Assembly: GCF_000620065.1 (NCBI RefSeq)
Contig: NZ_JHVI01000029.1
Location: 1-40,024 of the forward strand
From: Meiothermus cerbereus DSM 11376
Lineage (GTDB): Bacteria; Deinococcota; Deinococci; Deinococcales; Thermaceae
Reading direction: 5' to 3'
DNA: 40,024 bases
Positions 16,043 through 40,024 of the stretch are shown piece by piece. Below the pieces are notes generated by a model, which was given only the letters and a program-made list of their open reading frames with translations, had not been told where the DNA came from and made no database searches. The translations under genes and the position numbers were made by a program. Numbering within the stretch: position 1 is the stretch's first letter; every line of letters starts with the position of its first letter.

Positions 16043-16265
16043 GGCCTGTGGATATGTGGATAAGGGCCATTTAATACCCATTGGCATCGAATTTGGCCTG
16101 TGGATAAAGGGTGTGGAAAATTGTGCATAAGCTGTGGATAAGCTGTGGAGAAAGTGGGCACTTATCCACAGGCGTGCTGTGCACGCACTTATCCACAGGT
16201 CTATCCACAGGGTTATCCACATCTTATCCACAGGGTTATCCACAGGGTGAATTAATTTATCCACA
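16025..16265. other. oriC: Chromosomal replication origin oriC
   Basis: The dnaA downstream region holds nine exact DnaA boxes. Three are on the minus strand (TGTGGATAA at 16055, 16099 and 16133). Six are on the plus strand (TTATCCACA at 16162, 16189, 16213, 16224, 16236 and 16257). Five one-mismatch boxes start at 16047, 16112, 16122, 16144 and 16201. All leftward boxes come first and all rightward ones after, so the two blocks face each other. An AT-rich stretch (about 15,965-16,042) borders the left block and is the likely unwinding element. Between 16266 and the dnaA stop at 16334 nothing further is seen. Confidence 0.96.
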
Positions 16266-16333: not shown

Positions 16334-17653
16334 TTAGCGTAGCCGCTCCTTGATGCCCTTAATGGCTTGTTGGATGCTGGGGTCGGTATCCAGGCTTTCC
16401 TGGATTTTCTGTATCGCATAAAGCACCGTGGTGTGGTCGCGCCCGTCAAAAAACTGCCCAATTTCTGGTAGGGAGGCATGGGTCATTTCACGAATCAGGT
16501 ACATGGCGATCTGGCGGGGAATCACCACTTCCTTGCGTCGGCCTGCACCACGTAATTCCTCTAGTTTTAGGTTGTAGTGTTCGGCCACAGCTTTGAGGAT
16601 TTCTTCCGGGCTCTGGCTGGTCTCGGAAGCTGAGAACACATCGGAAAGCGCTTTGATGGCTACTGCCTTGCTTAGCTGCACGCCGTTGAGCGAGGCGTAG
16701 GCGATAACCCGCATCAGGGCCCCCTCGAGCTCGCGGATGTTGGAGGTGATTTGTTTGGCGATGTACTCCAGCACCTCTTCGGGAATGCGCATGTTGCGAT
16801 ATTCGGAGTTCATTTTGAGAATGGCCACACGGGTCTCGAGGTCGGGGGGCTGAATATCGGTGATCAGGCCCCACTCAAAACGGCTGCGCAGCCGGGCCTC
16901 GAGGGTCAGGATGTCTTTGGGGGGTCGGTCGGACGATAGGATGATCTGTTTGCGGGCCTCGTAAAGGGCGTTGAAGGTATGGAAAAACTCCTCCTGGGTG
17001 CGCTCCTTTCCGGCGATAAACTGGATATCGTCTACCAGCAGCAAATCCACGGAGCGGTAGCGATCGCGGAACTCGGTCATGCGGTCTTCACGAATGGCGT
17101 TGATAAGCTCGTTGGTGAAGGTCTCGGTGGAGACGTACTCGATTTTCTTGTCGGGAAAGCGCTGGGCTACCGAGTGCCCCACTGCGTGCATCAGATGGGT
17201 TTTGCCGAGACCCACACCGCCGTAGATGAACAAGGGGTTGTAGGCATTGCCGGGCGATTCGGCCACGGCTACGGCGGCAGCGTGGGCAAGGTTGTTGTTC
17301 TGCCCCACCACAAAGTTCTCGAAGATGTACTTGGGGTTTAGTCGGGCCCGGGCCTCCTGCGGCTTGGCGGGGGTGGAGGCAGAAAAAATGTCTTCCTGTA
17401 CGGGTTTTCCTGGAACCACCCGCAGCTCGAAACGAGGGGTTTGTGCCCCCAGTCGGGTTAGGGCCTCGGTGAGCAACTCTGCGTAGTGGTCTTCAATCCA
17501 GCCTTTGAAGAAGCTGGTGGGTACGCCCAGCTCGAGTGAGCCGTTGACCACCCCCAGCGGCTGAATTTTCTCGAACCAGGTGTGGTACTCCACCTCGGTG
17601 ATGCTTTGGCGCACGTACTCGAGCACATTCTGCCAAACAGTGTTTTGGGTCAA
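16334..17653 (-). CDS. dnaA: Replication initiator DnaA
   Basis: The 439-residue initiator binds the boxes of oriC and opens the duplex. Domain I is at the N-terminus ([13 protein letters not shown]), the linker at about 80-105, and the AAA+ domain follows with Walker A GGVGLGKT (about 145-152) and Walker [10 protein letters not shown] (about 204-212). The C-terminal box-binding helix contains [12 protein letters not shown]. An open frame reaches an ATG at 17704, but this lies inside a DnaA box of the promoter; the TTG at 17653 (LTQNTVWQ) has GGGAGG 7 nt upstream and fits the family N-terminus. The inverted DnaA boxes upstream suggest autoregulation. Confidence 0.97.
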
Positions 17654-17685: not shown

Positions 17686-17728
17686 ATTCTACTGAGTTAT
17701 CCACAGGCAGGAAATCCCCTGTGGATAA
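17686..17728 (-). promoter_or_regulatory. dnaA promoter with an inverted pair of DnaA boxes
   Basis: TAGAAT (minus strand, 17686-17691) is a good -10 about 30 nt before the dnaA TTG. Exact DnaA boxes at 17697-17705 and 17720-17728 point toward each other and cover the -10/-35 interval, so DnaA binding should block or tune its own transcription. Confidence 0.65.
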
Positions 17729-39573: not shown

Positions 39574-39744
39574 CCCAGGCCCCAAAGCGGGCACGCTGCC
39601 CCGTTACAAAAAGCGTTACATGCTATTTTGTGCCCAAAAATGCTATCGCAACCGTACCCCCTTGCCAAAAAAACACCACACCGGCACCCACCAGAACAGC
39701 ATGGAAGCAATTTCCAAAAATAACCCATTATGTTTTGCGCAAAA

Positions 39745-39753
39745 TGCTATAAT
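39745..39753 (+). promoter_or_regulatory. Extended -10 promoter in the leader
   Basis: TGCTATAAT combines a TGN extension with a perfect TATAAT hexamer, reading toward the CRISPR repeat. No clear -35 is present, as expected for extended -10 promoters. Confidence 0.55.
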
Positions 39754-39810
39754 GCCTATGTCGGCCATTTCGACAGCGGTTCTTGAAAGCCTAGATGTGC
39801 GATGTAAATC

Positions 39811-39850
39811 GCAAACCCACCGCACAAAAAATCTAAAAGTGCGGGTTTGT
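39811..39850 (+). ncRNA. Bulged hairpin within the leader transcript
   Basis: GCAAACC and CGCAC (39811-39825, with a 3-nt CAC bulge) pair with GTGCG and GGTTTGT (39839-39850), giving 12 paired positions around an A-rich loop of 13 nt. It lies about 50 nt downstream of the predicted transcription start from the extended -10. Whether it is a separate small RNA or a leader structure is unknown. Confidence 0.35.
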
Positions 39851-39886: not shown

Positions 39887-39911
39887 TTATCCACAGGCTG
39901 CCTGTGGATAA
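39887..39911. promoter_or_regulatory. Perfect palindrome of two DnaA boxes
   Basis: TTATCCACA (39887-39895) and TGTGGATAA (39903-39911) are both exact DnaA boxes and lie within 12-nt perfect arms (ending GGC and starting GCC) around a single T. The arrangement repeats the inverted pair at the dnaA promoter, but with almost no spacer, and lies about 23.6 kb from oriC. Confidence 0.7.
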
Positions 39912-39977
39912 CTCGGTTTTCTCATAAATACCCCCTAATAAGAGCCCTTTACAGGACGGCGATTAACGGGGTATGCT

Positions 39978-40024
39978 GTCGCAAACAAAAAGCCCCGTAA
40001 GGGGATTGCAACTGCGATCCAAGA
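39978..40024 (+). CRISPR. First repeat of a CRISPR array running off the window
   Basis: Bases 39978-40012 (35 nt) begin GTCGCAAAC and end GGGGATTGCAAC. The core CCCC-GTAA-GGGG can form a small hairpin, the ends GTCGCAA and TTGCAAC are near-complementary, and the last eight bases ATTGCAAC have the form of a crRNA 5' handle. Thermus repeats remembered from type I and III systems share the GCCCCGTAAGGGGATTGCAAC-like 3' half. Bases 40013-40024 would be the first spacer. Only one repeat is visible, so the array itself is inferred. Confidence 0.75.

Follow-up and report, generated by a model that had tools for sequence, protein, structure and literature searches.

DnaA is known to have sites outside oriC, and CRISPR leaders are known to contain sites for host factors; new spacers come preferentially from replicating DNA. 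A locus of Meiothermus cerbereus DSM 11376 resembles systems of both kinds. Like the IHF site of type I-E leaders and related motifs, it is a conserved chromosomal-protein site confined to the leader, where its distance to the first repeat is constant; unlike that site, it consists of DnaA boxes, it lies about 65 bp from the leader-repeat junction, and a role in integration is here a proposal. Like datA and DARS of Escherichia coli, it puts DnaA boxes at places other than oriC, with several copies close to the origin, although each leader site has two boxes and its several dispersed copies always lie inside a CRISPR leader. A DnaA-box-rich region near oriC titrates DnaA in E. coli (PMC12371093), and DnaA is a known transcription factor (PMC8203912). 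A review of that latter function makes no mention of CRISPR (PMC8203912), and no paper linking DnaA boxes with CRISPR leaders was found in the literature searched, in line with an earlier sequence-only reading of this DNA that knew of no such link; within that literature, the combination of a DnaA site and a CRISPR leader is new. The fixed pair of DnaA boxes in these leaders suggests a previously undescribed link between replication initiation and CRISPR immunity.

Results

The window, meaning the whole 40,024-nucleotide stretch that was analysed, carries near its right end the palindrome TTATCCACAGGCTGCCTGTGGATAA (39887-39911). By its sequence it comprises two convergent exact DnaA boxes (39887-39895 and 39903-39911) separated by 7 bp, in the form TTATCCACA-N7-TGTGGATAA, and its dyad symmetry is perfect with the sole exception of the central base, T39899. 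The repeat-proximal leader follows on the plus strand (39912-39977; 66 bp in the window, 65 bp in nearly all relatives) and leads into the first CRISPR repeat, the 35-bp GTCGCAAACAAAAAGCCCCGTAAGGGGATTGCAAC (39978-40012, plus strand), recognised because the same repeat forms the arrays on contigs C2 and C54. The sequence-only reading, which had reported a palindrome of two exact DnaA boxes ending 66 bp before a repeat, is borne out by these positions. The window's contig stops 12 bases past the first repeat, so that the array is severed and any second repeat lies outside the window. The leader itself recurs twice more in the genome, on C2 and C54, at 99-100% identity over 313 aligned bp, followed by 10 repeats on C2 and 6 on C54; because these near-identical copies head arrays, the window's leader is a true CRISPR leader, as that reading had supposed. 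A fourth array, also on C54, adjoins a 1725-base run of N, which hides its leader.

The window also contains the replication origin. Nine exact TTATCCACA boxes mark the chromosomal oriC (16055-16265), about 23.6 kb from the leader, next to dnaA on the minus strand (16338-17651, approximate ends; orthologous to dnaA of the related genomes G004 and G012). Upstream of dnaA lies an inverted pair of DnaA boxes with a gap of 14 bp (17697-17728), the closest parallel to the leader pair, and it is kept in five further Meiothermus genomes (G002, G008, G011, G012 and G014) with a gap of 14-15 bp. The nine copies in oriC and the pair before dnaA identify TTATCCACA as the DnaA box of this organism, and both halves of the leader palindrome correspond to it exactly. 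An inverted box pair is a pattern that the Meiothermus lineage already uses at dnaA. As in the leader, two exact TTATCCACA face each other there, in the setting of DnaA autoregulation, but the gap is 14-15 rather than 6-7 bp, the pair adjoins dnaA, and no repeat array is tied to it.

Exact TTATCCACA sites number 41 in the genome: nine in oriC, two upstream of dnaA, six in the three leaders and 24 elsewhere. If these 41 boxes were placed at random, the expected number of convergent pairs spaced 6-7 bp apart would be about 0.0006; three are observed, all of them in leaders, and a chance origin of the pair is rejected; a reversed control pattern gave no match in any genome searched. Outside oriC, clusters of exact boxes occur on C31 (three boxes; L272, 1238-1279) and C20 (two boxes; L273, 1323-1343), the latter apparently within a coding frame.

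The leader or its repeat was matched in 17 of the 18 genomes of Meiothermus. Across related strains and the other arrays of the window's own genome, the box pair is kept in every assembled array-bearing leader of the family, 38 of 38, drawn from 17 genomes in three genera: 14 Meiothermus genomes, and two and one from two further genera that we take to be its sisters (a fourth genus, judged partly by its repeat type, is presumably Thermus). This count covers leaders that could be located, the arrays of G009, G015 and G016 ending at contig ends with no leader found, G007 giving no leader match and the arrays of G020 being left out. Arrays behind leaders of this type run from several to more than 20 repeats. 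Both boxes are exact in 36 of the 38 leaders; one box in G001 is TTATTCACA, a change at a degenerate position that the DnaA consensus TTATNCACA permits, and in one of the two G019 leaders one box is TTATCCACC, a change that the consensus does not tolerate, with the array still present. Recent duplication is rejected as the sole cause of this conservation, both boxes being kept in leaders that share only about 73-84% identity with that of the window. Among 50 Thermaceae genomes, pairs with a 6-7 bp gap are found in these leaders only, and pairs with gaps of 3, 4 or 5 bp lie outside leaders. Inverted pairs of the shorter kind (gaps of 3-5 bp; L039, L261 and L262) occur in or beside genes, away from CRISPR repeats, in G020 and G021, which belong to the third genus.

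Conservation within the leader is concentrated in the boxes. Over 33 distinct leaders, the mean is 1.99 of 2 bits for the 18 columns of the boxes, 0.54 for the five columns at the centre of the gap and 1.30 for the remaining 199 leader columns, which indicates that the 9-mers are the selected part; no further set of columns of this shape scores above 1.76 bits. Strong conservation extends about one base past each 9-mer, and a perfect dyad with a short gap is what a dimeric regulator typically binds, so that a dimeric protein other than DnaA might bind the palindrome, its match to the DnaA box being a coincidence or an evolutionary by-product. We consider this quite improbable: each half reproduces exactly the box found in the organism's own oriC, a gap that varies between 6 and 7 bp from leader to leader suits two separate boxes better than a single operator, and the natural variant TTATTCACA changes a base at which the DnaA consensus is degenerate.

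Two leader-like sequences on contig C24 of G017 (L035 and L257), each followed by one degenerate repeat, have lost the palindrome while retaining both the promoter-side and the repeat-side blocks; they share derived features and are possibly duplicates of each other. Four leaders with just one recognised repeat in the available sequence keep the palindrome, which argues that its loss tracks decay rather than a low number of repeats. A GTDB-wide scan (about 85,000 species) for the pair with a 6-7 bp gap returned at least 119 stretches, with no CRISPR array recognised beside the non-Meiothermus matches listed, a negative that is not absolute, as the simple repeat detector also missed both Meiothermus leaders in that scan (one a single-repeat array, the other at a contig end). 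Two other matches from the same order had no adjoining repeats.

Several further elements lie upstream of the palindrome. The probable leader promoter has a predicted -10 element on the plus strand (39748-39753), TATAAT extended by TGC, which is conserved in Thermus leaders too. Directly upstream of it is an invariant 12-bp palindrome, TTTTGCGCAAAA (39733-39744), a candidate operator. This element is invariant in Meiothermus-type leaders and was not seen in Thermus leaders; of its five copies in the genome, three are in leaders and two within coding frames. Where the leader RNA is presumed to begin, a short plus-strand hairpin (39759-39775) has arms that covary between species (GTCGA/TCGAC, GTTGGA/TCCAAC, GCTAGA/TCTAGC, GCCGGG/CCCGGC and GCGGG/CCCGC). 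Thermus leaders hold an equivalent inverted repeat at the hairpin position. The promoter-like TGCTATAAT and the covarying hairpin directly after it suggest that the leader is transcribed through the palindrome. Farther along, a conserved AAAAAATCYAAAA block sits between imperfect inverted repeats (39811-39850).

If transcription probably crosses the palindrome, the element could act as a stem-loop of the leader transcript in processing, stability or attenuation, and the leader RNA is indeed predicted to fold better than shuffled sequences (z -4.3), the palindrome forming a strong stem. However, compensated changes in that stem are absent from the 33 leaders, in which the 5' hairpin covaries freely, and this difference points to recognition as a DNA sequence rather than as an RNA stem. 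The flanking pair is moreover broken or wobble in a few leaders, and a stem would not require the DnaA 9-mer. The RNA reading is accordingly disfavoured, and we regard it as very improbable.

A more serious rival is that DnaA bound to the pair controls transcription of the pre-crRNA, as a roadblock or attenuator within the transcribed leader, so that crRNA output would follow free DnaA in a manner comparable to dnaA autoregulation. Transcription that crosses the palindrome, as the conserved upstream promoter and covarying 5' hairpin imply, would suit it, as do the inverted box pair before dnaA in the same lineage and the established action of DnaA as a transcription factor (PMC8203912). Against it, the pair neither overlaps the promoter nor lies just upstream of it, as boxes at a DnaA-controlled promoter would, but is found about 130 bp after the presumed start, an unusual place for a regulator. 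The gap is 6-7 bp in the leader against 14-15 bp in the dnaA pair, the promoter has its own invariant palindrome in TTTTGCGCAAAA, and a roadblock requires no fixed distance to the repeat. That distance is 65 bp in all leaders measured, or 66 bp in two of the three copies in the window's genome (values of 61 or 67 in some rows are an artefact of the script's repeat-start setting). The distance from the -10 element to the palindrome, 138-140 bp in all leaders measured, is as fixed as that to the repeat; the whole leader is thus rigid, and fixed geometry alone cannot tell integration from transcription. Transcription control is the main rival to a role in integration, and sequence does not decide between the two, although we consider it the less likely, at a possible but rather low probability.

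Except in G018, arrays of this family are often found close to oriC in Meiothermus, where they occupy more than one position. The leader lies 24 kb from dnaA/oriC in the window, 10 and 198 kb in G004, 14 and 228 kb in G012, 89 kb in G011 (a second copy is on another contig) and 71, 89 and 99 kb in G014; the arrays of the window's genome and of G004 share the same neighbourhood but occupy different places. Judged by synteny, the C54 arrays should be some 80-260 kb away from the origin; for the C2 array the distance is probably in the region of 1 Mb or greater. The two G018 leaders are about 0.7 and 0.9 Mb from dnaA. The trend towards the origin therefore has exceptions, and sites that share a genome do not count as independent.

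Leader pairs could then be titration sites, arrays near oriC absorbing DnaA soon after initiation and the link to CRISPR being incidental. The many copies near the origin (in the window and in G004, G011, G012 and G014), within 230 kb of dnaA, keep this alternative alive, with the DnaA-titrating region near the E. coli oriC as precedent (PMC12371093). It is nevertheless improbable: the G018 copies, and probably that on C2, lie far from dnaA, each leader site offers two boxes compared with nine in oriC, and titration leaves the restriction to leaders, the fixed gap and the fixed place unexplained.

Cas1, Csm6-like proteins, RAMP proteins and a Cas10 with a Csm1 domain are encoded beside the C54 leader, and these neighbours indicate that the array family is probably type III-A. 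That every CRISPR-Cas locus of this genome might carry the pair was rejected, since no DnaA box was found near the other cas1 loci, on C26 and C53. Thermus type III leaders are homologous, with a corresponding promoter, shared TTGAAAGCC, CTCATCG, TCTCAYAAA and CAGGACG blocks and related repeats, but they lack the DnaA box: there is none in 11 leaders from four genomes, nor any exact pair with a gap of 3-12 bp in 27 genomes of the Thermus group. A conserved TATTCGCC...TGCATATTC stands in about the same place. On this comparison, the box pair would have been either acquired by the Meiothermus lineage or lost from Thermus.

Discussion

From the observed sequence, conservation, geometry, occurrence in leaders only and identity to the oriC box, we infer that DnaA binds the leader palindrome, and we hold this to be very probable. 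Pairs confined to leaders, the use of the organism's own oriC 9-mer, the inverted pair at dnaA, the variant TTATTCACA at a degenerate position and the loss of the palindrome in relics all speak for a genuine DnaA site in the leader. The core of the sequence-only reading, a DnaA site within a CRISPR leader, thus gains support from true arrays, conservation and own-oriC box identity, whereas its proposed roles in titration, reactivation, transcription or acquisition are not separable by sequence alone. Its titration role recedes before a leader-specific one, favoured by the restriction to leaders and the fixed geometry, and its further suggestion of a reactivation site found no specific support. 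Titration needs no fixed gap, place or leader restriction, so that, given binding, DnaA is likely to act at the leader rather than purely by titration.

Given a role at the leader, we lean somewhat towards integration over transcription, because the site is repeat-proximal, lies about 130 bp past the presumed start and is accompanied by a promoter with its own palindrome, TTTTGCGCAAAA. Given that the pair lies 65 bp short of the junction between leader and repeat, a DnaA complex there would most likely be architectural or licensing in the manner of IHF. In such a mechanism, DnaA molecules would bind both convergent boxes in double-stranded DNA, and the resulting complex would bend or mark the leader and thereby direct Cas1-Cas2 to insert new spacers at the first repeat. 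Integration would then depend on how much DnaA is present or on its nucleotide state, and hence on the state of replication. As a whole, a genuine DnaA site in type III-A leaders with an IHF-like or licensing role in spacer integration is our best explanation, a plausible one that may well prove wrong; that DnaA is a licensing or architectural host factor through which immune memory follows the replication state we put forward more tentatively. Weighing against the best explanation are the equally fixed distance to the promoter, the Thermus leaders without boxes and the G019 leader that retains its array behind a damaged box. Thermus type III arrays acquire spacers (PMC7515739), and since they do so without the boxes, a general need for DnaA is excluded; as a host factor it would be specific to the lineage.

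If DnaA does act in integration, the control of replication initiation and adaptive immunity would be joined through one short, testable DNA element, which would add a control on the receiving side of spacer acquisition. To mark where spacers are integrated, different lineages may then recruit host proteins that are quite unlike one another. The Thermus leaders (L220-L231) carry a conserved GGCGAATATGCG as well as TATTCGCC-N-TGCATATTC, in an inverted arrangement, and the latter element is perhaps a different host-factor site.
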